A DNA stretch of 39,642 nt from Desulfobacula sp. (GTDB lineage Bacteria > Desulfobacterota > Desulfobacteria > Desulfobacterales > Desulfobacteraceae), in contig JAAUSZ010000013.1 of NCBI GenBank assembly GCA_012031875.1, positions 1 through 39,642 of the forward strand, in the 5' to 3' direction. The notes below the pieces were generated by a model, which did no database searches, was not told the origin of the DNA, and was given only the letters and a program-made list of their open reading frames with translations. Both the position numbers and the translations under genes were made by a program. Of this stretch, positions 1,891 to 37,751 are shown one piece after another. Every line of letters starts with the position of its first letter. The stretch's first letter is position 1.

Positions 1891-3531
1891 ATGGCGACTG
1901 TGGCCCAAAAATTTGCAGAGGGCTTGAAAGAAATCGGTATCCGTTATGTTTTCGGAGTGCCGAGCGGCAGCATGATCGACTATGTGGAGGCCATCCGGAA
2001 AACCGATGGAATGGATTTTATTCTTGTCAGCCATGAGGCCGGGGCAGGGTTCATGGCTGCGGTCTGCGGTCGGCTGACCCGCGTTCCGGGGGCCTGCTTC
2101 GCCACCTTCGGCCCCGGCGCCACCAATGTCTCCACCGGAGTGGGCGCGGCCTTGCTGGACCGGAACCCCGTCCTGGTATTTACCGACGAGCTGCCGGAAA
2201 GATTACGGCATCGAACGGCCCAGATGAATATCGATCATGGGGCCCTGTTCAGACCTTTGACCAAAGGCGTTTTTCGGTTGACGCCGGGCAAAGTCGGGGA
2301 AATTCTTTTTGAAGCGGCAGGCCTTGCCGTTAAAAATCAGCCCGGCCCGGTCTATGTGGGGGTTCCCTCGGACATGGCGGACCGGGAAAGCCCGGAGCCG
2401 GACCTGTCTCCGGTTTCGGGAATGGCCCCGGTTTCGCCCCCCAGGGAGTCCGTACCGGCGGCTCCTCCAGCCCTCAGGGCCATGCAGGAGGCGGTTTCAA
2501 AGGCCCAAAAGCCCCTTCTGGTGCTGGGGCTGACCGCGGCCCAATCCGGCCTTAAGCCCCTGATCCAAAAGGTGGCGGAACAATTTCAAATGCCCGTGGT
2601 CCTTACCCCCATGGCCAAGGGGCTGATTTCCGAAGACCACCCGCTTTACGCCGGGGTCCTGAACCATGCCCTGGCCCATATGGTGGGCCGGACCCATCAA
2701 CAGGCCGACCTGATCATCGGCATCGGGTATGACCCGGTGGAGGTCAATTACGAGGATTGGGCGCCTCCTGCGCCCATTGTCCATATCAGCCCGGTCCCCG
2801 CGGACCTGGACAGGGATTCCCATACCTTGGCCGCGGATGTGGCCGGGGATATGGAATCTTCCCTCCAGGCCCTGGCGGTCCTTTCCCCCCGGCCGCTTGA
2901 ATGGGACTATCAGGCGCTTCTCAAGTGGAAACAGGCCATGTTTGCAAGCTTTGCCCCGGCCCCCGGCTCCTTCGGCCCCCTGGCCGTGCTCCGGGGGCTA
3001 AGACAGGCCCTGCCCCCGGACGGGATCCTGACCTGCGATGTGGGGGCCCATCTTCACCTCATCGGCCAGTTCTGGCCCACCCCGGACCCGGACTGCCTTC
3101 TGATGACCAACGGCTGGTCCTCCATGGGATTTGCCATACCGGCCGCCATTGGGGCCAAACTCTGCCGGCCCGATAAAAAAACGGCCTGTGTGGTGGGGGA
3201 CGGCGGATTTCTCATGACGGCCGGGGAACTGGCCACGGCAAAGAGGCTCCATCTTCATATCGTGTTTGTCATTTTATCCGACGGAGAACTCTCCCTGATC
3301 CGGATCAAACAGGAACACAAATCCTATGATGCCGGATATGGGGCCCGCCTGGGTGCAAAGGGCGGCCTGGGGTCTGATTCTTTTCTCGGGATCCCGGTCA
3401 TCCCGGTTTCGGATCAGGGCGGCTATGAAAAAGCCCTGAAAAAGGCCTTTGCCCTTTCCGGGCCGGTCATCATCCATGCGGAGATTGAGGGTTCGGAATA
3501 TGACGGCCTGGTGCTGAAGGGCAACAGATAA
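1891..3531 (+). CDS. Thiamine diphosphate-dependent enzyme, acetolactate synthase-like
   Basis: A 546-residue ThDP enzyme with the three-domain layout of the acetolactate synthase/benzoylformate decarboxylase superfamily: PYR domain (about 1-175), central domain (about 195-330) and PP domain (about 360-535). Glu49 in SHEAGAGFMA matches the Glu that activates the thiazolium cofactor, and FGPGATN is the conserved loop near the active site. GDG at 436-438 starts the ThDP/Mg motif. At its far end the usual Asn-Asn or Asn-Asp is Ser-Asp (LSDGEL). The reaction is likely decarboxylation or carboligation of a 2-oxoacid; the substrate cannot be told. The ATG at 1891 begins the domain; a TTG at 1852 is in frame but adds nothing recognisable. 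It stands alone and ends three bases before the convergent J-domain gene. Confidence 0.85.
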   Translation: MATVAQKFAEGLKEIGIRYVFGVPSGSMIDYVEAIRKTDGMDFILVSHEAGAGFMAAVCGRLTRVPGACFATFGPGATNVSTGVGAALLDRNPVLVFTDELPERLRHRTAQMNIDHGALFRPLTKGVFRLTPGKVGEILFEAAGLAVKNQPGPVYVGVPSDMADRESPEPDLSPVSGMAPVSPPRESVPAAPPALRAMQEAVSKAQKPLLVLGLTAAQSGLKPLIQKVAEQFQMPVVLTPMAKGLISEDHPLYAGVLNHALAHMVGRTHQQADLIIGIGYDPVEVNYEDWAPPAPIVHISPVPADLDRDSHTLAADVAGDMESSLQALAVLSPRPLEWDYQALLKWKQAMFASFAPAPGSFGPLAVLRGLRQALPPDGILTCDVGAHLHLIGQFWPTPDPDCLLMTNGWSSMGFAIPAAIGAKLCRPDKKTACVVGDGGFLMTAGELATAKRLHLHIVFVILSDGELSLIRIKQEHKSYDAGYGARLGAKGGLGSDSFLGIPVIPVSDQGGYEKALKKAFALSGPVIIHAEIEGSEYDGLVLKGNR

Positions 3532-3534
3532 GCC

Positions 3535-4572
3535 TTATCCGACCTTTTCCAGCAGGGTTTCGTAGGCATTGTTCAGTTCCACAAATTTTTCGTGGGAGCC
3601 GCCCGTGTCCGGGTGGACCTGCCGGGCCAGCTTTCTATAGGAACGGGCCAGGCGCTTTCGGGTCATGACCCGGAGGTCTTCACGGGTGATGCCGAAAAGT
3701 TTGCAGGCCTTGTCCAGGGTGACGGAGTTCGCTGGTCTGGGGGTGAAAACCCGGTGCCGGTTCATGAAATCCTTTGCCAGGTCATCCAGGAGGGTGGTGT
3801 CGGCATAGGGGTGGTCAAAAAACATGATCAAATACCGGATCAGATGGCGATCCAGGGTTTTGTCCCGCATATAGACGGTTTTGTTGATCCTGCAGATTTC
3901 CGTGAGAAAATAATTGTCCACCCGGTCCTGGTCCAGGGCCTGGGGCATTCTCTTGGCCAGCATGCCCTGAAAAAACCGCTGGAGATCAAACACGGCATAT
4001 ACATAGGATTTGAGTTCCCGGGCCTTTAAAGAAGAGGATTCCTGCCTGAAGAACTGCTGCTCGATCTCATCCCTGGATTTATGGGCATGGTCTGAAAACA
4101 AGGCGGCCGGCATGTTTTCCACGGGCCCCGGGTCCATGTTTCCGAATCTTAAATAATGGGCTCGCCGTTTGTCGAAATCCGGTACGATTTTCAAGATTTC
4201 CTGTTTTCGGGCTTCCGTGAGTTTTTTCCTTGTATTCCGGAAGGAGCGGTTCATGAAATGTTCCAGGGCCTCCCGGATATCGGGCCGGAGCCAGGGCAGG
4301 AAAATCTCTTCAAGCTCATCGGAATCATAAACCGCGCCCGAGTCGGCCAGGGCCGCTTCCATGGTTTCATCAAAATAAAAGGCATTGCCGCCCGGGTAAA
4401 GGATAACCGAGGAAGGATCAGGCCCGATCTCATAGAGGTCCCTGAAGGTCAACTGCCGGTCGATGACCAAGGATTCCCTCAGGATAAAATGGGGTTTGCC
4501 CTTCTTTTTTTCATAGGCCAGGTACATAACCTCATCATAAGGCAGGATCTTCCGGATGTACAGGCAGGACAT
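3535..4572 (-). CDS. J-domain protein with long uncharacterised N-terminal region
   Basis: A 345-residue protein whose last 65 residues form a J domain: YRKLARQVHPDTGG contains the His-Pro-Asp triad at 320-322, which stimulates DnaK ATPase. The first 280 residues are a charged, largely helical region with no Gly/Phe linker or zinc centre, so this is not DnaJ itself. It is more likely a specialised class III co-chaperone whose N-terminus selects the client. There is no signal peptide or membrane helix, so it should be cytoplasmic. An inverted repeat lies 14-29 bases upstream of the ATG. It is divergent from the DUF6765 gene. The client is unknown. Confidence 0.82.
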   Translation of the reverse strand: MSCLYIRKILPYDEVMYLAYEKKKGKPHFILRESLVIDRQLTFRDLYEIGPDPSSVILYPGGNAFYFDETMEAALADSGAVYDSDELEEIFLPWLRPDIREALEHFMNRSFRNTRKKLTEARKQEILKIVPDFDKRRAHYLRFGNMDPGPVENMPAALFSDHAHKSRDEIEQQFFRQESSSLKARELKSYVYAVFDLQRFFQGMLAKRMPQALDQDRVDNYFLTEICRINKTVYMRDKTLDRHLIRYLIMFFDHPYADTTLLDDLAKDFMNRHRVFTPRPANSVTLDKACKLFGITREDLRVMTRKRLARSYRKLARQVHPDTGGSHEKFVELNNAYETLLEKVG

Positions 4573-4585
4573 AAATATTAAAAAT

Positions 4586-4601
4586 TCAGGGTTTTCCCTG
4601 A
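4586..4601. promoter_or_regulatory. Short inverted repeat upstream of the J-domain gene
   Basis: TCAGGG and CCCTGA form a perfect six-base inverted repeat around a TTTT loop, 14 bases from the J-domain ATG, in the 216-base divergent gap 4573-4788. It could be an operator or a 5'-leader hairpin. The rest of the gap is AT-rich near 4600-4625 and shows nothing else clear. Confidence 0.25.
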
Positions 4602-4788
4602 TTGATTTTTAAAAAAAAGTTTATTAGGATGCAGGTCATCATTTCCCCTGCTGTGCAGATCCCGGCTTTAGAAAAGCGAATTTCCCGATATCCATCCCCA
4701 GGCAATCCTGATTTTGAGATAACAGGGCGAGGCAGAGGCCAGGAAAAGAAGGCCTTTTAAACCATAATACGGAAATAAGGAGAACGCT

Positions 4789-5871
4789 ATGCAGATTGAT
4801 TTTCATCATGCCGTGACCTATGTCGCGGCCAGGGCCGCCGGGTTCGACCATCCCGAGGCTGAAAAGACAGCCTATTGCGCCCAGTATGTGGATGATGCCG
4901 TTAAGACGGGGACCATTGCCTTTCAGAACAAGGCCCTGTATGACCGGATCTGTTCGGCCCACAAAACCCTGGACTACAGGAATATGGAAGAACTTGCCAA
5001 CCACAGGGTCTGGCTTCCCTTTCATTTCCTTCCCGGCAATGCTGGAAAACCAGCGGGTTCGGACCCGGCCCGGCATTTTGTGGAAAGGGTGGTCTGCGTC
5101 AAGGACAGCTTCGTTGCCCGGGACATGATCGCCGCCTGCATCGGGGACCGGCACAAACCCTACGGGCTTCACAGGCTGGGCATCACCCTGCACACCTATG
5201 CCGATACCTGGGCCCACCAGGGGTTTGCCGGGATCATCCATGAGATCAACGATATCCGTGATCTCAAGGACGAATCGGGTGCAGGCCTGAGGCCCCGGGA
5301 TATGCTTTCCCGTTTTTTCGGGAAGCTTTTTGACCAGGTTGCCGGCAAGCTGGTGGGAAATACCCTTCCCCTGGGCCATGGGGCGGCCCTGTGTTTTCCG
5401 GACCTGCCCTATCTCCGGTGGAGCTATCAAGACAGCAGCGGGCAGACGATTCCCCGTGACAATACGGTTGATTTCCTGGCCGCGGCCGACGCCATGTGCC
5501 GGGTCATGAAGCAATACCGGGCCGGAACCCCTGGTGTGCTGCTCACCGGCCTGGATGCCGCGTACAAGGGCCCTATGGAAAACCTGTTCAGAACCGTGAC
5601 GGATAAAGAGGGCGAGGACCGCCATGCCAAATGGCTGGAGGCTATCCGGGAGGGAGTCTTCCCCTTTGGCCCCGTCGAGCTTGACTATGACCCGGACGGG
5701 AGAAAATCCTGGAAAAGTCTTGCCCTGGGCACTTCCAAGGATGCAGCGGAATACCCCTGGGATGAATCCTTTTTGACCAGCGACTGGAAATATTTCCATG
5801 ATGCCCTCCTGGATCATCGATTCACCCTTATCCACGACATTTTGCCGAATTACAACATCTGTGCAGCCTGA
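4789..5871 (+). CDS. DUF6765 family protein
   Basis: A 360-residue protein that I recognise as the DUF6765 family from its start, MQIDFHHAVTYVAARAAGF, and AYCAQYVDD shortly after. The middle has LHTYADTWAHQGF, a His/Asp/His arrangement on a predicted helix. It resembles metal-binding motifs of helical zinc phospholipase C/P1 nuclease-like folds, but this is only a resemblance. No signal peptide is seen. A strong AAGGAG site precedes the ATG. A long open frame on the opposite strand covers most of the gene, but it lacks family character and is a shadow. The next gene follows after 18 bases, so the two are probably co-transcribed. Function is unknown. Confidence 0.85.
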   Translation: MQIDFHHAVTYVAARAAGFDHPEAEKTAYCAQYVDDAVKTGTIAFQNKALYDRICSAHKTLDYRNMEELANHRVWLPFHFLPGNAGKPAGSDPARHFVERVVCVKDSFVARDMIAACIGDRHKPYGLHRLGITLHTYADTWAHQGFAGIIHEINDIRDLKDESGAGLRPRDMLSRFFGKLFDQVAGKLVGNTLPLGHGAALCFPDLPYLRWSYQDSSGQTIPRDNTVDFLAAADAMCRVMKQYRAGTPGVLLTGLDAAYKGPMENLFRTVTDKEGEDRHAKWLEAIREGVFPFGPVELDYDPDGRKSWKSLALGTSKDAAEYPWDESFLTSDWKYFHDALLDHRFTLIHDILPNYNICAA

Positions 5872-5889
5872 CCCTTGAAAGGAGAGAAA

Positions 5890-6300
5890 ATGAATTTTCC
5901 GAAAATCGGTGACCGGGTGGAGACGGAGCAGGCCCTGGAGCTGTGCCGGTATTTTAAACTGGACTACCTGGTCTCACGCATAGAAAGGGAGCCATCCCTG
6001 TATAAAAGCTGGATATTTGACGGCTGTTCCTGCATCCATGATGAATTTCTGGGCCTTTTGACCGGGTGTGACAGCGAGGCCCTGACTTTTAAGTGCTGCC
6101 TCCCCCATGATCTTGGCTATGCCTATGGCGAGCCCGGCAACCGCATGGAAAGAAAACGGGTGGACTTGAAATTCCAGAGTGATCTCATCACCAAGGCCCG
6201 GATGAAGGAGTGGGCCGCCGCAGCCCTGTATGAAGGGGTCCGGGTGGGGGGAGAAGAGGTCTTTGGCCTTTCCTTTTCCTGGGCCTTTGCAAGAAAATAG
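5890..6300 (+). CDS. Small protein with phospholipase A2-like CC-x-x-HD motif
   Basis: A 136-residue protein I cannot place in a named family. Its centre has FDGCSCIHDEF followed about 25 residues later by CCLPHDLGYAYGEPGN. In secreted phospholipases A2 the signature is Cys-Cys-x-x-His-Asp, where His and Asp are catalytic, and prokaryotic PLA2 proteins are also this small. Here Leu-Pro separates the cysteines from the dyad and no signal peptide is visible, so a cytoplasmic PLA2-like fold is only a hypothesis. The ATG at 5890 follows an AAGGAG site with good spacing. It lies 18 bases after the DUF6765 gene and probably shares its transcript. Confidence 0.7.
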   Translation: MNFPKIGDRVETEQALELCRYFKLDYLVSRIEREPSLYKSWIFDGCSCIHDEFLGLLTGCDSEALTFKCCLPHDLGYAYGEPGNRMERKRVDLKFQSDLITKARMKEWAAAALYEGVRVGGEEVFGLSFSWAFARK

Positions 6301-6333
6301 GGCGAATTGAAAATCCATCCCTGTATAAAGCCT

Positions 6334-6354
6334 GGCGGACTGGGCCGGTCCGCC
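6334..6354. terminator. Hairpin between convergent genes
   Basis: GGCGGAC and GTCCGCC form a perfect seven-base stem around a seven-base loop, placed between the ends of two convergent genes and touching the stop of the acyl-CoA synthetase gene. There is no long T tract on either side, so termination is plausible but unproven. Confidence 0.45.
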
Positions 6355-8127
6355 TAATACATGGCGTCAATGAGGTGCTTGTATTTCCCGTTGATGGTTT
6401 TCCGTTTCAGCTTCAGGGTCGGGGTGATTTCCTCTCCTTCAATGGTGAAGGGCTCGGCCAGCAAGGTAAATTTTTTGATGCTCTCGTATTGGGCCAGCTT
6501 TTTTGAATGAAAATCAATGCGTTTGCGGTAGAACCGGATAACCTCCGGATGCCGGATCAGTTCCTCCCGTGAGGCATAAGGGATATTCTTTTTTTGGGCC
6601 CAGGTCTCAAGGGCGTCAAAGGAAGGAACCACAAGGGCGCTGATAAACTGCTTGCGTTCGCCGATGGTAACGATCTGGTCAATGAAAAAATCTTTGCCCA
6701 CCAGGGTTTCAATATGCAGGGGCGCTATGTTTTTTCCGCCCGAGGTGATAATCAGGTCCTTGATCCGGTCCGTGATCCTTAAAAAGCCGTCTTCGTCAAA
6801 CTCCCCCACATCCCCGGTTTTGAACCAGCCGTCCCGGATTTCCTCGGCTGTTTTTCAGGATGGTTATAATAGCCTTTCATGACCTGGCCGCCCCGGACCT
6901 CGATCTCCCCGCTATCCGTGATCCTGACCTCGCAATTGGGCACGGGCTTGCCCACGGTCCCGAAGCGAAAGCAGGAAGGGGTGTTGCAGGTGATCATGGG
7001 AGAGGTTTCCGTCAGGCCGTAGCCCTGGCAGATCAAAAGGCCGCAGGCAAAAAAGAATTCCTCAATGGATTTTTCAAGGGGGGCCCCGCCCGCGGAAAAA
7101 AGTTTTTATCCCCGCCCACAATGGCCCTGACCTTGGAAAGCACCAGTTTGTCATAGAGGCTGTGTTTTAATCTTAAGCCAAGGGGAATGGGCCGGTTTTT
7201 GCGCTGCCGGGTATAAAAGTCTTCCCCGGTTTTGACGGCCTGCCTGAACAGGATTTTTTTAAAGGCGGACGCGGTTTCCTGGCGGTTCATGACGGTGGCG
7301 TATATTTTCTCGTAGAGCCGGGGGACCGACACCATGGCCGTGGGCTTGATTTCCTGAAGGGTTTCAATGACCTTTTTGGGATCTTCCAGGTAGGTGTGGA
7401 CGGCCCCCTTGAAATAGACATAATAGGACCACATTCTTTCGTAGACATGGCTCAGGGGCAGAAAGCAGAGCGAGGTGTCCCGGGGTGAGATGTTGAAATG
7501 GGCGTCCAGGGCCTCGAACTGATGGAAGAGGTTCCCGTGGGTAAGCATGACCCCCTTGGGGTTTCCCGTGGTGCCGGAGGTATAAATAATGGTGGTGGTA
7601 TCGTCCTTTTGGATCAGGGCTGTTCTTTTGCGGATCTCATCCTTGACGGACGCTGGTGTTTCTCGGGCCGTAAAGTCCTTGAAATACACGGCAAAGGCGG
7701 GGTCGACCGGGATAGTATCATCATAGGAAATGACCTTAAGGGGCCCTCCTTCTGAAATGACGGCCTCCACGTTCCGGTACTGGAAGTCATTGCCCGTAAA
7801 GATGAGACGGATGCCTGCATCTTCGATGATAAACCGGGCCTGTTCCCTGGTATTGGTGCTGTAGATGGGGACGGAAACCGCGCCGGCCAGGATACAGGCA
7901 TAATCCGTCACGGCCCATTCATACCGGTTGGCGGAATAGATGCCGATATTGTCCCCCTTTTGCACCCCGGCCAGAACCAGGGCCGCGGCAAGACCATTTA
8001 TTTTTTCTCCAAACCCGGCATAGGTCAGAGCCTTCCAGTCCTGGCCCTCCTTAAACCGAAGGGCGGTTTGCGGTGCGTATTCCCGGACTTTTTCCGTGAT
8101 CACCTGACCCATATGTTCATATTTCAT
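6354..8127 (-). CDS. Long-chain acyl-CoA synthetase (AMP-forming), frameshifted twice
   Basis: This enzyme activates a fatty acid to acyl-CoA through an acyl-adenylate. [18 protein letters not shown] is the AMP-binding P-loop, [10 protein letters not shown] the A5 motif, and SGGKNIAP the C-terminal catalytic-Lys/hinge region. The gene reads in three frames. Adding one A to the six-A run at 7096-7101 restores NFFSAGGAP, and adding one T to the five-T run at 6851-6855 restores [12 protein letters not shown], giving about 591 residues, normal for the family. Both breaks therefore look like homopolymer undercalls. ATG 8127 begins MKYEHMGQV; upstream residues are not family-like. The CoA-transferase gene is 62 bases upstream on the same strand, which suggests a joint role in organic-acid or fatty-acid activation. 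Confidence 0.87.
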
Positions 8128-8189
8128 GCGGACAATTCCTTTACATAAAAATAATAAATCCTGAGAACGCTGTTTACCTCTTATTGAAA

Positions 8190-9911
8190 TCAATGGCAAA
8201 TATTATTTTCATGCCAGCTCAGATGAAAGCCCTCCCCGGTCACAATGGCATCCGGTGTGACCGGAACACGGCCCGAGCCGGGCAGGATGACCTGCATGGG
8301 GCAGGCCTGCAGGATATCTTTTTCAATATCCACCCCGGGCATGACCTCAATGAGCATCATGCCTTGTTCCGTTAACCGGAATACGCCCACATTGGTCACA
8401 TACAGGACGGTTTTGCCTTTTTTCAAGGCCTGCTCTCCGCTCATGGTGATTTCGCCGACCTGGTTGATGAATTTATGGGGGCCGGGTTTGACTATGCAAA
8501 GCCTTTTCTCCCGGATTTCCATTTGGGCGTTGGCCATCCATGATCCCACAAAAATAAGGGTCTGGGCCGCGGCGCAGAAATCCGGGAACCCTCCGGGACC
8601 CACATAGTTCAAGGCGCCTTCCCCGCGCTTGGACACATTGACGTTTCCCCGGCCGTCCACTTCCAGTATCCCTAGGATCGCGCAATCCAGATGTTCATAA
8701 CACAGGTGAAACACCTGGGCCGAGGAGATGATTTCCCTGGGATTGATTCCAGCCCCGAAATAAACGCCTGGTGCGGGAAGCCCGCCGATGACACCGGTTT
8801 CGGACATGAAGGTCACCTCGTCAAACAGGCCGCCGGTATGGATCAGCCGGGCGACTTCCTCGGGAAGCCCCACACCGATGATGATATTGCAGCATTTTTT
8901 TACAAACCGGGTAAAGGCTGTGGCGGCCAGCCGGGCCAGGGCGTCTTCCACCTTTCCCCGGACCGGGGTAATGCCCAGGACCCGGTTGACGAACTGAAGG
9001 TCTTCCATGGCGGCCCGGGGATCGACTTTAGCACCTTCGGTAAACATGGGCCAGAATTTTTTCTGGGGTACGGCAACGGTCTGTTCGTTGTAGGGATGAA
9101 CCGCCAGTGCATCCACCATGTCCGCGCTCAGGAAAATTTCCTCGGGTTGCTTTTCGATGATTTCCGCCACGCTGACCAGCACCTTGCCTCCGTTGGCCTT
9201 GGCTGCCAGGGCCGCTTCACGGCTTTCCGTAAACAGGGCGCAGTTTTTTACATAGATATTGCCTTCCCGGTCCGCGGCCGGGGCAATAAAAAAAGCGGCA
9301 TCGATTTTAGGAAGGCTGTACCGCAGCTTATCCCCGGCAACCTCGGTCATGCTTTTCCCTTTGCCGGGGATCACCACGGTGCCGTTTCCCACCCGGGGAT
9401 CCAGAAAGGTCCCGACGCCGGTGTCGCTTTCGATGGAAAGCCGGCCCCGGCCCTGGGCTTCAATGAGCAGGGTTTCTATGCCCTGGGGAAGGGTGTGCAG
9501 TTCCACATGGCCCTGATCGGCCAGTTTTAAAATGGTTTTGAGGGTCTCATGGTGGCCGGCGATAAACCGGGTGATGAGACCGGGATCTTCACCCAGTTCC
9601 TCCAGGGTGCCTGGGATCCGCCCCCGCCCGCCCTGGGCTCCGACAATGATATGGGTCAGCCCCCGGGGATGCCCGGTTTCCCGGAAATTCTGTTGAATGG
9701 CCCAGAACCAGACCGAAGGCCGGGCATTCCCGGCCATGCCGCAGGAAAAGGTCGTCGCACCGTCAGGGATCAGGCGGACCGCTTCCATGGCCGTCATGAA
9801 CTTAGGGTTGTCCAGCCCTTCAGGCTTATACGCCAGATTCTTTTTTTTCCATGTCAGCCGCCAGCGTAAAATCACTGCCAGCAGCCGGATTTTTGCAGAT
9901 AGATTCATCAT
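8190..9911 (-). CDS. Acyl-CoA:acetate/3-ketoacid CoA-transferase, fused alpha-beta type
   Basis: A 573-residue family I CoA-transferase of the COG4670 type, in which both subunits are joined in one chain. The first half has PDGATTFSCGMAGNARPS, matching the start of the alpha domain. The second half has the beta-domain active-site motif SETGVIGG, with Glu371 as the residue that carries CoA as a thioester. It moves CoA between carboxylic acids and acyl-CoAs without ATP, as in short-chain fatty-acid metabolism. The donor and acceptor are unknown. The start at 9911 has an AAGGAATC ribosome site; an in-frame upstream extension to 9962 is less likely. It is the first gene of a pair with the acyl-CoA synthetase. 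The 272 bases upstream (9912-10183) show nothing I can support. Confidence 0.87.
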   Translation of the reverse strand: MMNLSAKIRLLAVILRWRLTWKKKNLAYKPEGLDNPKFMTAMEAVRLIPDGATTFSCGMAGNARPSVWFWAIQQNFRETGHPRGLTHIIVGAQGGRGRIPGTLEELGEDPGLITRFIAGHHETLKTILKLADQGHVELHTLPQGIETLLIEAQGRGRLSIESDTGVGTFLDPRVGNGTVVIPGKGKSMTEVAGDKLRYSLPKIDAAFFIAPAADREGNIYVKNCALFTESREAALAAKANGGKVLVSVAEIIEKQPEEIFLSADMVDALAVHPYNEQTVAVPQKKFWPMFTEGAKVDPRAAMEDLQFVNRVLGITPVRGKVEDALARLAATAFTRFVKKCCNIIIGVGLPEEVARLIHTGGLFDEVTFMSETGVIGGLPAPGVYFGAGINPREIISSAQVFHLCYEHLDCAILGILEVDGRGNVNVSKRGEGALNYVGPGGFPDFCAAAQTLIFVGSWMANAQMEIREKRLCIVKPGPHKFINQVGEITMSGEQALKKGKTVLYVTNVGVFRLTEQGMMLIEVMPGVDIEKDILQACPMQVILPGSGRVPVTPDAIVTGEGFHLSWHENNICH

Positions 9912-19329: not shown

Positions 19330-21636
19330 ATGAAATTCCTGTACACTTTGGCAATCCTGATTTTGACATTATCTTTGGCCCATGGTGCCAAGCCGGAAAA
19401 AAAAAGAGCCCGGCGACTATGTTTCCCTGAGAATCTCCGCCCGGGTCATCGGTCACTACTCGGGCCGGTACAGCGAGACCTCGGAAGACCTGTCCAAAAA
19501 CAAGACCTATCTGGATGCCTATACCACATCCTATACCTCGGTCACCCGGTGGAAGGTCAAAGATCCGGATCAGCCCGATGATGTCGCTTCCCTGGAACGG
19601 GTATCCGACAATCCCCAGGTGTCGGGCACAGGACAGGGAATGATGAAGGAAGTGACCCGGCGGACCGTGATCGAGCCCAGTGGCCGGAAAAGAAAAGCCG
19701 TGGATATCATCGACGCAAGCTGGACCTACAGATTCCCCCAGGACAATCACCCGTTACCGGCAAGGGTGGTTCTTCACAAAAAAGCCAAAACCTTCCGGAT
19801 TGAAATGAATGACGTGGGCCCGGAAATGCCGGAACTGACCGGCCATACCACCATCACCATCGACGGCAGGGGGCAGTCCCTGGAGGGCCCCATGGCCGCC
19901 CCCATGGGCATGGCATTAAGCACCGCAGCCCAGAACGCCGCCATCCCCCAGGGTGAATCCGATAAACGCCTCACCGGCGAATTCGACCCGGAAAAACCTT
20001 TTGTCACATCCGGAACGGCCGTGTACAATGCGTCTGAAATACCAAGCTATAAAATGATGATGGACGGCCTTGCCCAATCCCTGGGTCCCGGCGCCGTCGT
20101 CAACGGGGACGGCAAACTCCATGTTTCCTATACCCTGGCCTGGAACTGCGAGCCGACGGATATTGATGCGGTTATCGTCCCCATGGACGGGTATAAATCC
20201 TGGCTGCCCCGGGCCTCCTCATCCCCGGGGGCCCCGGGAAACACCCTCCGGTTTGAGGTGAAACTCAGGGATACAAAAACCGGCAAAGAGCCCATGGACA
20301 AGACCGCCTATTTCCAATGCGACCTCCTGGAGGTTTCCAAAGAGCCCGGTTCCTGCATGAACAGCCCTTCCGGCGAGACGGAGCCGGACCTGAAATTTCT
20401 TTCAACGGACAACCCGGACATGGAAACCGTGGCCCCGGACGGCCGGACCGCCAAAAGCAAGGAAAAGCTGAAAAAATGCAGGCTCAGTATCAGCTCCTTT
20501 GACGGCGGCGCCTATGGGAAATTGAAAATCACTGCCCACCTGAATGACGGCCGGGTCGTCCTGGCCCACCTGGAAGGCAAAGACGGGGATCTCTCCCTCC
20601 CCTATGATGAAGACGGCAACCATATTGCCGATGCCTGGGAAGAGGCTAAGGGCGTCAAAGGCAAAGACCCCGGGTCCGACGATGATGAACAGCCCCTGGG
20701 AGACCGGAACAAAGGGGATGGTCTGACCCTATGGGAGGAATACCGGGGGTTCCTTGGAGACGGCCGACATTTCAGGACCGATCCCAAAACAAAGGATCTT
20801 TTTATCTGTGATACCGTGGGCGGCCGCAGACAAGGGGGATCAACCGGTTTGCGGCCCTGTCCAAGCTGGATGTCCATGATAAACTCACCGAAGCCGAGCT
20901 GGACCCCACTCGGGTCATCAACCGGAACCACGGGGAAGGGCCCCATGTGGTGGATCAGCACGGGCTGCTCCTGGACAGCCATACCGACCCTGAAGGATGG
21001 AGTTTTGCCATGGGAGGGCCGGGCACCCCGAAGATTGTGTCCCGGGTTCTCATTAACAGAGATATGAAGGACACGATCAAACAAACGCTTTGCGGTGGAG
21101 CAACCAAGACTTACCCGTTTTATGAAGTGATTGTCGCCCATGAACTTTTCCACTGCTGCAACGTATGGCACCACGGTCCCTCTCTCGACCAGGTGGTGTA
21201 CTGGAAATCGAAAATCGTGGGCGGAAAAAAGGAACTGCTTGAATACGACAATCCGGCCGATATTGATGCACCTTATAGAGGAAACCGGGTTACAATTCAT
21301 CCCGGTGAGGATGATACCCTGATATATGCTCCGGACTTGGCTCTCTGGGATAAGCCCTTTCCGGTTCTCATGGGCAATTCATGGGGCCCGCACAGCGGGG
21401 ACGAGAATTGTATCATGCGTTACAGCAATTCCGAAACCCGGACCGGTTCAGCCCCGAATATCCGTTACTGCCTGGTATGGGAATGCCAGGAACCCGTGGG
21501 CCAGGGGTTATGCACAAGCCCAACCGGGACCGGAGTGAATGAGGAAGGGAGAAAAACCGGGTCCCGATATGGCAATTGCGCTTCAGGCCAGGGTGATTGT
21601 ACGGATCATATTTGTGTCAATGATTTATATCATTAA
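19330..21636 (+). CDS. Secreted putative zinc metalloprotease (metzincin-like), copy 1, frameshifted
   Basis: About 768 residues when repaired. A signal peptide (MKFLYTLAILILTLSLAHG) precedes a long beta-rich region with no family I recognise. Two Asp-rich calcium-loop-like motifs follow (DEDGNHIADAWEE and DRNKGDGLTLWEEY), then HELFHCCNVWHH, which fits HExxHxxNxxH, a metzincin-like zinc site. CIMRY downstream may hold the Met-turn. The C-terminus has several cysteines and ends ICVNDLYH. The frame breaks twice: at the nine-A run 19397-19405 (one base too many, or two too few) and at the five-G run 20834-20838 (one too few). The intact paralogue at 22658 confirms both joins. A GAGGAGG ribosome site precedes the ATG. 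The target is unknown. Confidence 0.78.
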
Positions 21637-21651
21637 GAGGAGTATATTAAG

Positions 21652-22618
21652 ATGCTGAAAATGAGATGCCTTCAACCTGTATTATCCGCTTTTATGGCCA
21701 TATGGATCATGGCGGCCTTGTTGTCCTGCTCCTGCGGGGACGACAACAAAAAACCGGATCGACATCTGAACCTGGCCCGACATCCCCCGCCCCCGGTTCC
21801 GAGCCCGGGCCCATGGAAGAACCGCCGGCGGAGGAACCGCCAAAGGAGGAACCGGGGCAGCTTGTGATTTCTCCCTCGGCTGACACCGGGGCAGATTTGT
21901 ATACCTCCTGGCCCCTCATCATAGCGCCGCTGTGTGGAGAAAAATACCGGTTTCGGATGACCAGGGCAATCTGCCTGAGGTCTCCCCCCATCACCCTCAG
22001 GGCGAAAAGCGGCCCATGGCGGGAGGCCCTGGTATTGGAGGTGAAAAACGCAGCCGGTGATCGTATGACCTGGCCTTTTCATCCCGTGAACCAACCTGAC
22101 CAAAGCCTTGTGCTTGGAGTGGATGATTCGGCAACCGCCCATTGGTGGCTGGACCCCTCCGAGACCCAGGCCCTGCCCGAGGGCGCCTACAGCGTCACGG
22201 TTTCATTTAAACCGGATGGGATGGACGGGCTCCCGGCGTATATTGTCCTGGACCGGTTTCATTTGACCATCAAAAAAGAACCCAATCCCCTTGATCCGGC
22301 CCTGGAATCGGCAAAGCACTATCAGATGGCCGATTTTTCCTGTTCAAAGGCGATGCCAAGGCCGCAGGCGAGCGGGTGGACAAACTTCTGGCGGCTGAAC
22401 CGGAAAACCTCGGGGGGCTCAGTTTAAAATCAAAACTTCTGGCCGGTGAAGGAAAAAATCTGGAGGCGGTCTATGTATTGGGAGATGCATTAAGCATTTA
22501 TTACCGGAAATACCCCAATGCCGACCCGCCTCTGGGGCTTCTCCATCAGCGCTCCGAAGTATTAAAGGATTTGGCGCCCGAACCCGTAAAAATTGACGGC
22601 AGCAGCCCGTCCAATTAA
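21652..22618 (+). CDS. Lipoprotein with beta domain and TPR-like C-terminus, frameshifted
   Basis: About 322 residues when repaired. The signal ends in a lipobox-like LLSCSC, followed by a low-complexity Pro/Glu linker (PMEEPPAEEPPKEEPG). A beta-rich domain comes next, with YSVTVSFKPDG and similar strands, then helices in TPR-like spacing (KGDAKAAGERVDKLLAAEP, then GKNLEAVYVLGDAL). Two breaks are repaired by one added A in the six-A run 21748-21753 and one added T in the five-T run 22334-22338, both giving continuous sensible sequence. It starts 15 bases after protease copy 1 and ends 39 bases before copy 2, so all three are probably co-transcribed. A scaffold or anchor for the proteases is possible but unproven. 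Confidence 0.7.
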
Positions 22619-22657
22619 GGGAGCGGGCATATCTATATATAGGCCAAGGAGATTCAA

Positions 22658-24886
22658 ATGAGACTGTTTCTGATGTGTATTGCCCTGATTTTTTCAGCGT
22701 CTTCAGCATGTTGCGCTGCGCCGGACGATGATAAGGTCACACTCACCATCAACGCCACCTGCGTGGCCGATTCGACATTGACCGACCCGCATGGATTGAG
22801 CATGAAAGACAACATTACCGCCGTTCTCAGTGAGCGGGCCGTCTATCGCATTGTCTCTGTCGAAGGGGGGGTATTGGAACTGGAGCTTGTCAACCACAGC
22901 AATACCGTCCAAATCTCAGGCGGCGGCACCTATAAAGATCCCACTGAATCCAGATCATGGACCTATATTGCGGGCAAACCTGCTACAGACAATGTCCAAG
23001 GCGGCGTCAGTATCGACACCCTGCACGGGACCGGCAAAATCTATATCAATGATTTTATGGCAGCCATCGGGGCCAAGGCAAGCCCGGAGGATGTGCAGGC
23101 CGGGAGTGCTTATGGGGAGGCCGATATGACCTTTGGCACTGCCACCGGCGAGGGCTTCACATCCCAAACTCTTTTTGAATCCAACGAGAGTTTTCTAAAA
23201 GGGCTTTACTTTACCTTTGACCCGAAATCAAAGCACATTTCAGCCCACGGCCAGGCAAATTACAACCTGATCAGGAAGGGGGAAGACGGCCATTATATCG
23301 GCACGGGCAAGCTCAACGTGAGCTATCAGGTTCAATCCGGTATGCCCCCTGCTGCGCCTTCTGTCGTGCTGATCCCCAAAGGGGATTACAAAAAATGGCT
23401 GCCCGGGGCCAAGGGGCCGGACACTCCGGGAAACACCATCACCTTTGATGTCGAACTCCGAGATCCCGAGGGCGGGAAGGCCAAGAAGAAGACCGCACAG
23501 TTCGAGATTGAGCTGCTCGATACCTCATCTCACCCCGGTTCCGCCATGAACAGCCCCTGGACAGGTGTCGCCCCTGATTTAAAGATCCTCAAAGCCAATA
23601 ATCCGAAGTTGGCAGAGGTCTCACCCGATGGCCAGACAGCCAAAACCGCCAAGGGCCTCAAATCGGCCGGCATCACCATCAGCAGTTTTGACGGGGCGGC
23701 CATGGGCAAGCTCACCGTTCTGGCGCGCATTGATGGTGAAGACACGGTGCTCACCGCTCAACTTGACTCCCATGTTACCGAAGTGAGCATCCCCTACGAC
23801 CTGGACGGTAACACCATTGCCGATGCCTGGGAAGAAGCAAACGGCGTCCTGGGCAAGCCCCTTGACACCGATGAAGACGCTGAACCCCTGGGGGATAGGA
23901 ACAATGGGGACGGGCTGACCACCTGGGAGGAATACCGGGGCTTTCTGGAGGGCGGGCGGCATATCCGGACTAACCCAAAGAAGAAAGACCTCTTCATCTG
24001 TGATCAGATCGGCGGCCGCAGCAAGAGGGCTATCAACCGGTTCGCCGCCTTGACCAAACTGGATGTCCACCATAACCTGGCCGTGGATGAATTGAACTAC
24101 ACCCGCATCATTAACCGGAACCGGAGCAAGGATGATCCCCATGTGGTGGATCAGCACGGGCTTCTGATGGAAAAATTCACCAAAGATAAAGAAAATTATG
24201 ACGGTTGGGCAGTTGAAGCACCAGGGACACCAAGGGCCCCGGGTGAAATAGGGACTCCAAAATCAACTGCCCGGATTATCATAGCCCATAATATTCCTGA
24301 TAAAGTCACAAGAAACATTGGCAAGAGCATCGGCGTCACCAAAACCTATGATTACTATGCCCCGACCGTAGCCCATGAATTGCTTCATGCCTGCAATGTC
24401 AGGCATCATGGGGAGAGAGATATAACGGTTTACTGGAAATCAAAAACCGTTGACGGGAAAAAGGAGCTGTTTGAGTATGATAATGAGGCTGATTGCAACG
24501 ATCCTGATTTTGGACACCGGATCACGGCTTATTACGGTGAAGATGTCACCCTGATTTATGGTGCGGACCTTCCTATGTGGGAAAAGCCCTTTCCTATCTA
24601 CATGGGTCAGAACTGGGGCCAGCACAGCGGCAATGAGGATTGCGTCATGCGGTATGATTGCTCCGAGGCTTATGGAGGCATATTCACTATCATAACTGAT
24701 GACGGTCGGTTTTGCCTTCTTAATACGAGCCGGGAACCCGTGGGCCAGGGGCTGTGCACAAGCTCGGATGGGACAGGAGTGAACGAGAGCGGCAGAAAAC
24801 CAAAATCCCGGTATCACGAAGCATGGGCCATCCAAGGCAAAGGTAATTGTGCGGATCAAATCTGCGTCAACGATTTGTATCATTAG
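22658..24886 (+). CDS. Secreted putative zinc metalloprotease (metzincin-like), copy 2
   Basis: An intact 742-residue paralogue of the gene at 19330. The signal peptide (MRLFLMCIALIFSASSACCA) leads to a beta-rich N-terminal region of about 350 residues with no family I know. Calcium-loop-like motifs begin at Asp381 (DLDGNTIADAWEE) and near 413 (DRNNGDGLTTWEEY), as in thrombospondin-3/EF-hand-like loops of bacterial exoproteins. HELLHACNVRHH puts zinc ligands at His573, His577 and probably His583, with Glu574 as general base. Met664 in CVMRY is a candidate Met-turn, though farther away than usual. Conserved cysteines follow, and the chain ends ICVNDLYH as in copy 1. Export to periplasm or outside is expected. 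Proteolytic activity and substrate are inferred only. Confidence 0.8.
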   Translation: MRLFLMCIALIFSASSACCAAPDDDKVTLTINATCVADSTLTDPHGLSMKDNITAVLSERAVYRIVSVEGGVLELELVNHSNTVQISGGGTYKDPTESRSWTYIAGKPATDNVQGGVSIDTLHGTGKIYINDFMAAIGAKASPEDVQAGSAYGEADMTFGTATGEGFTSQTLFESNESFLKGLYFTFDPKSKHISAHGQANYNLIRKGEDGHYIGTGKLNVSYQVQSGMPPAAPSVVLIPKGDYKKWLPGAKGPDTPGNTITFDVELRDPEGGKAKKKTAQFEIELLDTSSHPGSAMNSPWTGVAPDLKILKANNPKLAEVSPDGQTAKTAKGLKSAGITISSFDGAAMGKLTVLARIDGEDTVLTAQLDSHVTEVSIPYDLDGNTIADAWEEANGVLGKPLDTDEDAEPLGDRNNGDGLTTWEEYRGFLEGGRHIRTNPKKKDLFICDQIGGRSKRAINRFAALTKLDVHHNLAVDELNYTRIINRNRSKDDPHVVDQHGLLMEKFTKDKENYDGWAVEAPGTPRAPGEIGTPKSTARIIIAHNIPDKVTRNIGKSIGVTKTYDYYAPTVAHELLHACNVRHHGERDITVYWKSKTVDGKKELFEYDNEADCNDPDFGHRITAYYGEDVTLIYGADLPMWEKPFPIYMGQNWGQHSGNEDCVMRYDCSEAYGGIFTIITDDGRFCLLNTSREPVGQGLCTSSDGTGVNESGRKPKSRYHEAWAIQGKGNCADQICVNDLYH

Positions 24887-24910: not shown

Positions 24911-25593
24911 ATGAAAAATACCATCTTGCGCCTGTTGTTTAATCAGGCACGCTTTTCAGGGCTTATTGTCATGCTGTTGATTTTCAATACAGGGGCGGCT
25001 TCGGGGGCGGATATTCAAACGCCGGAGGGATATACCCGTTCGAATACACTGCCGGCGGCTTTCTTGACTTTGGTGCCGAAAGGATATACCGTTGAATCAC
25101 CGCAAATGGTCAAGTACGGCCCCATGGGTGATGTGACCTTCTTTGCCCAAAAAAGATTACAGGCCGTCATTCAATGTACACCAGCGAATATCACTTTTCT
25201 CTCAATATCAAAGAGGCCCCAAGCCAAATGACCAAAATTCAGGGGCCAATGTATCGGACACAACTGGAACAAAACATTGAAAAGGAAATGAGCGACCGCC
25301 GCAAAGATGACTCGGATCCCATAACCGGCTATGATCAGGCCCGGTTAACCCGGTATGCCTGGGGGGCGGGCATCACTCAACGGATTATTCACAAATATAT
25401 GGGAGCCGGGAAGAGTCCGGATGAGATAGACTATCATTGTGTATATTTCGGCTTAATGGTTGATGACCTGTCCATCAAGCAATTCAAGCTGTCTGTGTCC
25501 GGGGTGGAAACCCTTGCCGAAGCAGATCAATGGGCTGAAAAAGCGGCTGAAAAAATAAGCAGGACCGGGCTTGCAGATTTAAGCGATAAATAA
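24911..25593 (+). CDS. Small secreted protein, function unknown, frameshifted
   Basis: About 227 residues when repaired. A basic N-terminus and a hydrophobic core ending near TGAASGAD make a signal peptide of about 33 residues. The mature part has no domain I recognise; its last third is helical and charged. The frame breaks at the six-A run 25149-25154. One added A links FFAQKK to ITGRHSMYTSEYHFSLNIKE and the rest. An AAGGA ribosome site lies just before the ATG. It follows protease copy 2 by 24 bases, so it is probably the last gene of the same operon, and a strong hairpin terminator lies at its stop. A role with the proteases, such as inhibitor or propeptide-like partner, is speculation. 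Confidence 0.65.
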
Positions 25594-25653: not shown

Positions 25654-26514
25654 CTATTGGGCCACCAGTTCCACCCGGCGGTTTTTGGCCTTGCCTTCAT
25701 CAGTCTTGTTGGATGCCACGGGTGAGGTGGGGCCTGCACCGAACGGCGTCAACCGGGCAGCCGCGATTCCGTGTTTGCCCACCAGGGCGTTCACTACGGA
25801 GGCAGCCCGGTCCTGGGACAATTTGACATTATTCGCAAACTGCCCCACCGTGTCGGTATGGCCCACCACAAAGACCTTGAGGGTTGCATCGGCCTTGAGC
25901 ATTTTGACAATCTCGGCCAGGGCCGGGTCGGACGCTGGTTTCAAATCCGCCTTCCCGGTATCAAAATAAATACCGTAAACCGCCACCCGCCCGGTTTCCT
26001 TGATACTGCCGGACAGGGCCTCGGCATTGGCAACCACATCCTGTTTCATGAGCTGCTTTTCAACCATCTGAACATTATACATCCCGTTGTTGGCCCCGGA
26101 GACCTCGGCCCAGACTTCTTTATCCTCCTTGATGATCCGGATAATGGAATACTGGGTTCCGCCGTCTTCAAATTCATAAACCTGCTCTCCACCGAGGGCT
26201 TTGGCTGCATTGACATAATTGCGGGTGATCTGGAGACCGCTGGGCTGCTTGATGCCCTCATTGGCGTAGTAGGCCACAAAGGTATGAAGGCCTTCAATTG
26301 TTTCTTTTTTATCAGGGGCCGTCTGGAATTCATACCGGTCAAACTCCAATACGTCATACCGTTGGATATGGAAACCGGGCATCCGGGAAAAAATATCCGG
26401 GTCCTTGCTGCCTGGAACGTCATTGGCGTCACTTGCGGCAAGGGCCGGGGTCAGCGGGATCAGACACAAAATCAGGAACAAAACAGATAGAACTGCAGCA
26501 ATACGATGTCGCAT
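25654..26514 (-). CDS. OmpA family protein
   Basis: A 286-residue exported protein. The signal peptide ends near LTPALAASD. The N-terminal 150 residues form a soluble domain without the barrel of true OmpA. The C-terminal OmpA domain has IYFDTGKADLKPAS, VVGHTDTVG and AKNRRVEL, and the Asp and Arg that grip the diaminopimelate of peptidoglycan are kept. It should anchor in the periplasm by holding the cell wall. I chose the ATG at 26514 because AAAGGAG lies ideally before it; an upstream extension to 26541 lacks this. The next minus-strand gene upstream, another exported protein, is 84 bases away. Confidence 0.85.
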   Translation of the reverse strand: MRHRIAAVLSVLFLILCLIPLTPALAASDANDVPGSKDPDIFSRMPGFHIQRYDVLEFDRYEFQTAPDKKETIEGLHTFVAYYANEGIKQPSGLQITRNYVNAAKALGGEQVYEFEDGGTQYSIIRIIKEDKEVWAEVSGANNGMYNVQMVEKQLMKQDVVANAEALSGSIKETGRVAVYGIYFDTGKADLKPASDPALAEIVKMLKADATLKVFVVGHTDTVGQFANNVKLSQDRAASVVNALVGKHGIAAARLTPFGAGPTSPVASNKTDEGKAKNRRVELVAQ

Positions 26515-26598
26515 GGGTTCTCCTTTAAATTGATTTTTCATTATATCTTGATATCTTTGGCGGATCCATGGATATGGGCCGGCCGGGTAAAAACACCC

Positions 26599-27426
26599 TC
26601 ATTGTTTGGGTGAGGCATTATATTTCAACCGGGTCCGGTAAGCCGCCTTTTCGATGTCCTCAAGGCATTTGACCCAGAGATCCCAGGTGTCCCTGATCAT
26701 TTCGTCCATGGCCGCCGCACCCTGCTTTGTCTGTCCGGGAGATGTATTAAACTGCTGAGCCATGGCTGCCATACCGGCAATATCACCCTTGGCCTTCATC
26801 TCCTGCATCTTCTTTTTCATCTCCTGGGCTTGGGCCTTGCCGGCCGCCTGGTCCTCACCGCCAGCCTGGACAGCGGATTTATCCTTGCCGTGGGCCTGGT
26901 TGTAAGCCTTTCGGTAGATGGACTCTCCCTCTGATACGCTCCGGCCCTGATCATCGGATACCTGGCGGAAAAAGGCCAGGTGAAGGGTCTTGTATTTATC
27001 TTCAAGGGCCTGGTATTCCGCTTCGGAGTGTTTGCCCATCAAGACCTGGCCCTTTAATTCCCCCAGGGCGGGGTGCAGATTGGCATCCGGCGTCTTTTCC
27101 TCAAACCGGACCAGGGGGACGGATTTTTCCCGGCCGTCGATTTTTTTGAAAAAACTCATCTGGAACCCCTGGCTGCCGTCAGCCGGGGAATCTTCCAGGC
27201 GGTCTCCGTCCTGTTTATTCGTATCAAAGAATTTTTTCACCGCAGCCACACTGTCTTTGGTCAGAAGAAGGGTGTCATCGGTTTCAACCGCCTTGACGGC
27301 ATTGCCGTATTTGGGCAGGGATCGCGGGGGCGGCAGTTCTTCTCCCCCATCCGCAAAAATAACGGCGTTCCCGTTTGCGAGATAGAGGAATCCTGCCAGA
27401 AAAGCCATTATCAGTCTTTTTTTCAT
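26599..27426 (-). CDS. Exported protein, function unknown
   Basis: A 275-residue protein that I do not recognise. MKKRLIMAFLAGFLYLANGNAVIFAD is a clear signal peptide by its positive start, hydrophobic core and Ala-rich end, with cleavage probably after FAD or just before. The mature part starts with a Pro-rich stretch, continues as a mixed domain, and from about residue 180 is a Lys/Met/Gln-rich helical segment (QEMKKKMQEMKAKGD) that could form a coiled coil. No metal or catalytic motif is evident. It lies upstream of the OmpA-family gene on the same strand. The region 27427-27524 upstream shows only its ribosome site. Confidence 0.68.
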   Translation of the reverse strand: MKKRLIMAFLAGFLYLANGNAVIFADGGEELPPPRSLPKYGNAVKAVETDDTLLLTKDSVAAVKKFFDTNKQDGDRLEDSPADGSQGFQMSFFKKIDGREKSVPLVRFEEKTPDANLHPALGELKGQVLMGKHSEAEYQALEDKYKTLHLAFFRQVSDDQGRSVSEGESIYRKAYNQAHGKDKSAVQAGGEDQAAGKAQAQEMKKKMQEMKAKGDIAGMAAMAQQFNTSPGQTKQGAAAMDEMIRDTWDLWVKCLEDIEKAAYRTRLKYNASPKQ

Positions 27427-36594: not shown

Positions 36595-37751
36595 ATGGAA
36601 ATTGTTGGAATCGATGTCGGGTTTGGTTTTACCAAGGCATATAACGGGAAAAATTCCGTTATATTCAATCCATCATCGGTGATGCAACCGATATCCAGTT
36701 TCATTCCGTCATGGGAGATGAATCCTCTACCGCAAATCTGCACATTACCCTTGATGATAAATCCTATTATCTCGGCAGCTATGCCGAACTCCAGTCCAAT
36801 ATCCGGGAGTTTACCCTTGACCAGGAAAAATTGCTGGAAAATTATTTCAAAATTCTTGCCGTGACCGCGGCCGGGCTCTGTACGGATACAACCGCGCCCA
36901 TCCAGGTTGTCACCGGACTTCCGGTGGGATACCTGAAAAGGGACAGCAAAAGATTAAAGGAATTGATTACCGGCGTTCATTATATCACCTTCCATTATCC
37001 TGAAGGAAAGGATGTCATCAAAAAGGTCCACATTGATAAGATCCAGGTCATTCCCCAACCCATTGGTTCGATTTTCAACCTGATTTTTGATGAACAGGGC
37101 AGGATCATCGACAAACAACTGGCCGGCCAGAAGATCGGTGTGGTGGACATTGGTTTTAAAACCACTGATTTCAGTATTTTTGACCACCTTCTGTATATCG
37201 AAAGAGGATCTTCCACCATGGATACCGGGATTTCAAAGTGTTTTTCCGTCATTGCCGGCAAACTGCGCCAGGAAAGCAATATTAATATTGAACTCTTCAG
37301 GATGTATAAATTTATCGAATCCGGAATGATCAAGATCAAAGGGAAGGAATACAATATCTCCAACCTTAAAAAAAGGGTTTACACCCATGCCGCGGCAGCC
37401 ATTGTATCGGATCTGAACCGACTCTGGGAAAATGACTGGGATATCGATTCCATTATCCTTTCCGGCGGCGGCAGTGTGGAACTTGCCGAACACCTGATTT
37501 CCGGGATTGAAGGCAATGTTATCCCCATCCCCAAAAATATTGATGCCCGGTTTAACAATGTCCAGGGATATTGCAAATTCGGGCGGTATAAATGGGGGTA
37601 TGCCAAGCCTTTGTCAGAACAAGGCACTGCAGAAACGGTTAAAAATACAGGGCCTGCCGAAGAGGGGGAACCTCCCCGCCACCCTGATCCGGAGGATAGC
37701 ACAATCGATAAGCCCACCAAAGGGCTTGCCTGGCTCCGCCGCCAAAACTGA
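36595..37751 (+). CDS. ParM/StbA-like actin family protein, frameshifted
   Basis: About 385 residues when repaired. The fold is actin/Hsp70: GIDVGFGFTKAY is the first phosphate loop, VVDIGFKTTDFSIF the second, and IILSGGGSVELAE the adenosine motif. ParM and relatives form ATP-driven filaments that push plasmids apart. The frame breaks between about 36650 and 36675. One extra base near 36669 links VIF to KSIIGDATDIQFHSVMGDE, and the exact position is less sure than in other genes. A strong GAAGGAG site precedes the ATG. The last 50 residues are a Pro-rich tail. No ParR-like gene or repeat centromere is seen nearby. It lies 15 bases before larB. Confidence 0.82.

Follow-up and report, generated by a model that had tools for sequence, protein, structure and literature searches.

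Zinc endopeptidases of the metzincin clan share an active-site motif that the available part of a recent article gives as HExxHxxG/NxxH/D, with Asn at the Gly place in lower pappalysins (PMC12237041, 2025). According to the available part of a second source, several bacterial pappalysin homologues have asparagine, one of them with a crystal structure, M6 is listed under MA(M), and the Met of snapalysins is found about ten residues past the third ligand (PMC3890501). For archaemetzincins (M54), the pattern HExxHxxGxxHCx4CxMx17CxxC is stated in the accessible text of PMC3427221, and in Listeria the secreted metzincin of the Mtz-Tim pair cleaves a lipoprotein encoded next to it, with a short form being released, as far as the accessible text goes (PMC8235301). 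Here, we analyze a locus of Desulfobacula sp. (assembly GCA_012031875.1, contig JAAUSZ010000013.1) encoding two neighbouring proteins, copies A and B, with the zinc motif HExxHxxNxxH; the window, meaning the whole stretch of DNA considered, is one whole contig of 39,642 bases. Judged from the sequences, it is likely that A and B are tandem copies from an undescribed and patchily distributed family of exported metzincin-type zinc endopeptidases.

Zinc motif and candidate Met-turn in the family

A preliminary description had proposed two paralogues of about 750 residues bearing HExxHxxNxxH and, about 80 residues past the third His, CxMRY as candidate Met-turn. Both motifs are present as described, with Met664 of B located 81 residues past His583 and the corresponding distance in A (zinc motif HELFHCCNVWH) amounting to 82 residues. 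The tandem duplication is likewise supported, but only B is intact (742 aa), whereas copy A is frame-broken and lacks an uninterrupted reading frame of about 750 codons in the window. In the alignment of six close proteins (A1, window B included), the zinc motif is kept in all six, and H573, E574, L575, H577, C579, N580, V581, H583, H584, and G585 (B numbering) are invariant, as are C662, M664, R665, and Y666 of the candidate Met-turn and altogether six Cys (448, 579, 662, 700, 731, and 736). Also the shared C-terminal ICVNDLYH holds, all six proteins ending with ICVND(L/W)YH, and C..QICVND is found in L010/L041 as well. The claimed signal peptide has a counterpart in the signal-like N-terminus of B, recognized by eye and similar in L004 B, L005 B, and L006, making export probable. 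B-type relatives are 81% (L004), 70% (L005), and 64% (L006) identical to B. The window proteins do not match any Pfam or NCBIfam family above cut-off (PHROGs and PADLOC were outside this search), in agreement with the earlier proposal of an undescribed family; weaker Pfam matches of any relevance were also lacking.

By position, H573, H577, and H583 are predicted zinc ligands and E574 the predicted catalytic residue, with Asn580 at the place usually taken by Gly; H573, E574, H577, N580, and H583 of B match the metzincin consensus. The preliminary description had regarded this Asn as a departure from metzincins, a view that has to be abandoned, because HExxHxxG/NxxH/D is the published consensus, at least in the available part of PMC12237041, and Asn in lower pappalysins appears also in that of PMC3890501. 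Hence, Asn for Gly is precedented, not new. The string HEXXHXXNXXH was not found in the open literature searched, a search that the spelling HExxHxxG/NxxH/D would escape.

Across the family, 15 cores are readable (window A and B, L004 A and B, L005 A and B, L006, L039, L040, L041, L034, L036, L037, L042, and L065). Left out were L035/L026 (G618; a 163-aa frame in which no core was found), L038 (running into the contig end), and L012/L066 (a fragment), while the remaining loci stem from the same places and duplicate proteins in this count. Asn occupies the Gly/Asn place in nine cores, among them L039 and L040 with HELGHKMNI(H/R)H, and Gly in the other six, with the textbook motif in L034 (HEVSHGVGVRH) and L065 (HEIGHSVGMTH). 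In the tree, the Asn members appear as one group at a support of 63/61; long branches meet there, and a single origin of Asn is not settled. The third His stands at metzincin spacing in 12/15 cores; it is shifted downstream by one residue in L036/L037 and by two in L042. More variable is the distance from the third His to Met, with 79-83 residues in the seven window-type copies, 54 in L041, 33 or 34 in L039/L040, 19 in L036/L037, 13 in L034, and, by eye, 16 in L042 and 8 in L065, where the short-spaced Met was read as the same turn by eye. Because the distance of the Met from the last ligand ranges from 8 to 83 residues among relatives, the far Met of the window proteins looks like the result of an insertion; accordingly, the unusual distance noted before is confirmed as such but probably reflects an insertion that relatives partly lack. 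The CVMRY column shows no variation in Met or Tyr across the eight rows of alignment A3, among which are the L041 protein (as L010) and the L040 protein (as L011). Read by eye, M-x-Y is present in 11 of the 15 cores and missing in L041, L034, L065, and L042.

It is the distant relatives, not the window proteins alone, on which the proposed assignment to metzincins is based. When the PDB was searched with the family profiles A4 and A5, both holding window-type proteins together with distant members, 29/29 matches of A4 and 9/10 of A5 were molecules that we take, by their names, to be metzincins. In both cases, myroilysin was the best match (E 0.0049 and 0.011, respectively); snake-venom and matrix metalloproteinases were also among the A4 matches, and the tenth match of A5 was 2luy. 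The myroilysin alignment to the family profile extends through the Met-turn. With the core alone as query, metzincins accounted for 2/2 PDB matches of L034 (E 0.57), 0/3 of L039, and 48/49 of L065. Below the Pfam cut-offs, Reprolysin_5, Reprolysin_3, and DUF6055 are matched in L039/L040 and Reprolysin_5 and Reprolysin_4 in L034.

The order of acidic loops, YRG module, HExxH-type core, and Met recurs in distant relatives that profile searches detected in other families of the phylum. The calcium-loop-like motifs of the preliminary description are real in sequence, reading DLDGNTIADAWEE...GDGLTTWEEYRGF within residues 381-429 of B; Pfam TSP3_bac matches this acidic-loop module at sub-threshold level only, in L038 and L065. 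L065 is tied to the family via the acidic-loop and YRG module (profile positions 11-81), not via the core, and the same applies to the matches of L042 and the search hits of L036/L037. Distribution of the protease family is patchy. Counting the window genome, matches were obtained in 2/58 relatives, in 5/395 and 6/390 genomes of the phylum, and in 8/389 of the class, while 1/17 genomes in the order of G352, 2/46 in the order of G363, and 1/2 in the class of G117 were positive in sets to which the window genome does not belong (searches by profile or protein). No relative was found in viral contigs (pattern and tblastn) or in plasmids and phages (tblastn of the catalytic part). In the L065 protein (4616-8275, minus strand, 1219 aa), a core of canonical metzincin type is combined with TSP3 repeats and a copper-binding MopE motif. 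The bacterial genomes of L051, L054, and L055 encode short proteins resembling archaemetzincins (HELGH..GLIHCF..(R/K)CVM, C..C), which were found by the M43 model.

Proposed assignment to metzincins and competing explanations

Several findings weigh against the metzincin assignment. The PDB search with B alone or with the six-sequence close profile yielded no metzincin and only one match each (1yhu and 8wrf), meaning that the earlier label metzincin-like is supported weakly by the A4 and A5 profiles with their distant relatives but not by B and its close homologues. The matches of these two profiles, with marginal E-values, comprise many PDB entries but few families. In members other than L039 and L040, no Pfam family is found above cut-off except TSP_3 and MopE repeats in L065; one A1 member matches DUF2268 at E 0.21, the A4 consensus matches only DUF3659 (E 0.18), and the A5 consensus M10 at E 0.1 along with two unrelated families. 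Probabilities from hhalign range from 0.4 to 16.7%, with shallow sets comprising four of nine loci tried for the M43 type (three of them archaemetzincin-like) and three for M6. Mean predicted local distance difference test (pLDDT) values of the AlphaFold2 models are 35.9 for the catalytic part (with A2) and 40.0 for B (with A1). In the latter model, the ten-residue blocks at the motif have values of 24 and 33, far below those around them, a helix being drawn at 568-577 (about 24 to 33), blocks of residues 22-380 reach at most 66, and 70 is exceeded only by blocks at residues 591-620, within the insertion. Finally, the catalytic Glu is replaced by His in L041 (3260-5407, HHLGH) and by Ala in L042 (1975-3327, HALGH), and L039/L040 also match Peptidase_M48, not a metzincin, below cut-off.

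Among the alternatives, A and B might represent divergent members of a named metzincin family, i.e. M6 of the immune-inhibitor-A type, M43 pappalysins, M54, or M57. The cores of L039 and L040 indeed reach the Pfam cut-off for M6 (22) with scores of 23.5 and 22.1 (whole L039 protein, 21.1), Asn at the Gly place is known from lower pappalysins in the available parts of PMC12237041 and PMC3890501, and the L065 core shows archaemetzincin-like spacing between third His and C-x-M (by eye) besides sub-cut-off matches to M10 (23.5 versus 24), M54, M57, M43, DUF4953, and others. This affiliation is nevertheless unlikely, as the window proteins themselves do not pass the PF05547 (M6) cut-off, reached only by the two cores mentioned, and none of M6, M43, M54, and M57 is listed for the six A1 members at E 10, a search in which HMMER filters drop most matches above about 0.1. 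Moreover, PF05572 (M43) has no match in these six members, the own genome is devoid of both M6 and M43 matches at E 0.001, and B does not show the archaemetzincin pattern, having His after the third His, Met at +81, and no Cys4 pattern. Different members lean to different families, which is expected of a separate branch.

A zincin fold that is kept but catalytically dead, with a binding or assembly role in the envelope, would be compatible with the Glu loss in two of 15 cores and with TPR-like partners (sub-threshold), as in assembly factors. It is quite unlikely, however, considering that the Glu is kept in 13/15 cores, including both window copies, and that the ratio of nonsynonymous to synonymous substitution rates (dN/dS) of B is 0.29 versus L005 B. 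L041 and L042 by themselves are possible pseudoenzymes. Very unlikely, in turn, is the explanation that the conserved Met does not form a Met-turn and the proteins are zincins of another subclan, or that HExxH is incidental. Although the gap of 81 residues is long, the AlphaFold2 models are of very low confidence, the MAFFT alignment A4 does not place the Met of L034, L036, and L037 in the Met664 column, and the Peptidase_M48 matches have E-values of 0.02 to 0.27 for the L039/L040 cores and 0.038 for whole L039, no other zincin subclan shows up in the PDB matches of A4 and A5, and Met and Tyr of the CVMRY column do not vary in A3. An incidental motif is contradicted by the chance expectation of HExxHxxNxxH in B of about 5e-5 (1.6e-4 with Gly or Asn allowed) at B's own composition. 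The family is real and probably undescribed, and its character is probably metzincin-like.

As a metzincin-type protease, the chain would be exported by Sec, with the N-terminal beta-rich region and the acidic module preceding the catalytic part, calcium presumably bound in the acidic loops, and disulfides formed from conserved Cys. One catalytic zinc would be coordinated by H573, H577, and H583, with E574 acting as general base. Asn580 might take over the sharp turn usually made by Gly, for which Asn would be suited through its tolerance of a left-handed backbone. Met664, preceded by an insertion of about 78 residues, would provide the Met-turn beneath the zinc, and Tyr666 of M-x-Y may serve as a Tyr switch like that of astacins. 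The enzyme would act in the envelope or extracellularly, perhaps on or together with the adjacent lipoprotein-like protein; our best guess for the substrate is an envelope or extracellular protein, possibly this partner.

Gene neighbourhood and state of the assembly

The features of the locus are compiled in the table. The partner gene between A and B is found in one frame in L004, L005, and L006, with all Pfam matches to tetratricopeptide repeats (TPR) being sub-threshold. L004 and L005 show the same arrangement of A, partner, and B, while in L006 a single protease gene precedes that of the partner. Possible partner homologues follow the protease in L039 and L040, where blastp with the L006 partner resulted in E-values of 2.9e-4 and 0.003 (15-protein set), the L039 match covering the TPR-like end only; the L005 and L004 partners as queries against the same genes gave 0.37 to 0.84 or nothing. 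All five partner or partner-like proteins were aligned (A6). A TPR-bearing gene also comes after L042, without blastp match to the other partners, and no partner-like gene occurs in the stretch read at L034, L036, L037, and L041. The partner profile matched in 82/331 genomes. Among the matches listed, full-length ones are restricted to G016, G708, and the window contig, all holding the protease, and the others listed fall within positions 174-307, the TPR-like part. For the immunoglobulin (Ig)-like part, BsuPI had been considered as model from the look of the sequence; PF12690 was found in 1/148 genomes and not in the own genome, and this relationship is not claimed. Just upstream of the degenerate family member in L042, a 1133-aa protein (3487-6888, minus strand) is encoded that is transglutaminase-like by eye.

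Features of the protease locus in the 39,642-base window
Feature	Positions	Strand	Basis or remark
Copy A, paralogue of B, split into three pieces in two frames	19330..21636	+	tblastn of L005 A protein
A zinc motif HELFHCCNVWH	21139..21171	+	sequence
A candidate Met-turn CIMRY, 82 residues past third His	21409..21423	+	sequence
Partner gene between A and B, pieces over three frames	21652..22618	+	lipobox by eye, Ig-like part by eye, TPR-like part
Copy B, intact predicted exported metzincin-like protease	22658..24886	+	742-aa open reading frame
B signal-peptide-like N-terminus, residues 1-21	22658..22720	+	by eye: hydrophobic run then ACCAA
B N-terminal region, residues 22-380	22721..23797	+	mostly strand in low-confidence model; no Pfam match
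B acidic TSP3/EF-hand-like loops and GDGL..(E/A)(E/K)YRG...R..P..K..F, residues 381-446	23798..23995	+	kept in distant relatives
B zinc motif HELLHACNVRH, residues 573-583	24374..24406	+	aligned by family profiles to metzincin active sites
B stretch from third His to CVMRY, about 78 residues	24407..24640	+	shorter in distant relatives
B candidate Met-turn CVMRY, residues 662-666 (Met664; Tyr666 of M-x-Y)	24641..24655	+	profile column aligned to myroilysin SIMHY (hmmsearch)
B C-terminus ICVNDLYH	24860..24883	+	ICVND(L/W)YH end in 6/6 A1 proteins
Small protein after B, no Pfam family, two frames	24911..25593	+	tblastn versus L005 10245-10928
OmpA-family protein	25654..26541	-	Pfam OmpA; blastp
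Protein of no Pfam family	26599..27426	-	homologues directly upstream of L036/L037 proteases

Homologues of the OmpA-family protein are encoded near the protease in L004, L005, L006, and L036 (63% between L005 and L036), and the protein encoded at 26599-27426 matches the genes upstream of the L036 and L037 proteases with blastp E-values of 2e-13 and 2e-14 (two-protein set). As OmpA-family proteins are common, the OmpA neighbourhood is only suggestive of a link to the protease. Farther downstream (36711-37751, plus strand), the window encodes a 346-aa actin-like protein with Pfam ALP_N and an archaeal MreB-like C-terminal domain.

The source genome is 87% complete and 6% contaminated. The same genes are present in metagenome-assembled genomes of a Desulfobacteraceae bacterium (L004), Desulfobacula sp. 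(L005), and a Desulfobulbaceae bacterium (L006), the L005 locus being on the same contig as G016, from the genus of the window genome. Between 19330 and 25593, five frame breaks affect three genes, with two each in A and the partner gene and a single one in the gene following B, and all of them sit in stretches with homopolymer runs. The pieces of A are 19330-19410 (frame 1), 19397-20839 (frame 2), and the catalytic part up to 21636 (frame 1), while the A copy of L005 forms one frame of 765 aa and the A frame of L004 (671 aa) is without roughly the first 100 residues. Compared to L005 by tblastn, B, the upstream penicillin-binding protein gene, the OmpA-family gene, and the gene at 26599-27426 are unbroken. 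Versus L005, dN/dS amounts to 0.17 and 0.22 for A (two parts), 0.98 and 0.16 for the partner gene (also two parts), 0.15 for the penicillin-binding protein, and 0.10 for OmpA, where 0.98 indicates either no constraint in that part or a poor alignment. Because of the homopolymer stretches at the breaks and the dN/dS values of 0.17 and 0.22, sequencing or assembly error is the likelier cause of the breaks in A than decay, albeit not proved.

Comparison with described metzincins

If the assignment is correct, an unannotated branch would be added to a large protease clan, showing natural variation in the motif Gly, in the Met-turn spacing, and, in two relatives, in the catalytic Glu, all of which are usually held fixed. 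The gene pair, moreover, suggests a concrete candidate for what the protease acts on. A more far-reaching proposal, drawn by analogy to Listeria Mtz-Tim, is that of a new metzincin family, mostly with HExxHxx(N/G)xxHH(G/T) and a stretch of 7 to 82 residues between third ligand and Met, which forms a two-component envelope system with the Ig-like/TPR-like lipoprotein as substrate or inhibitor. This is possible but appears doubtful.

Of the described enzymes, myroilysin (PDB 5zjk, 5czw, and 5gwd; a metzincin, MEROPS MA(M)) is the best PDB profile match, at E-values of only 0.005 to 0.016, and resembles the window family in the HExxH helix (putative in the window proteins), the spacing of the third His, and the downstream Met of M-x-Y. 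It differs from the latter, which has Asn for Gly, a long insertion before the Met, and an upstream acidic-loop module. Astacins carry Glu after the third His, where the window family has His. The likeness to M6 (PF05547) is that of the L039 and L040 cores at the curated cut-off, whereas the window proteins are unmatched and M6-type proteins of relatives read HEAGHLICRFPDLYD, with no YRG module seen by eye. With lower pappalysins (M43), the family has in common the Asn at the Gly place, following the available parts of PMC12237041 and PMC3890501, but not the PF05572 match, and L065 shares with archaemetzincins (M54) the C-x-M spacing only (by eye). As in Listeria Mtz-Tim, in the accessible text of PMC8235301, a metzincin-like gene adjoins a lipoprotein-like gene, a pairing seen here from gene adjacency alone; unlike Tim, the partner in the window family, which occurs in other hosts, is TPR-like and contains a part that looks Ig-like by eye, and the Pfam scan gave no indication of a TIMP domain.

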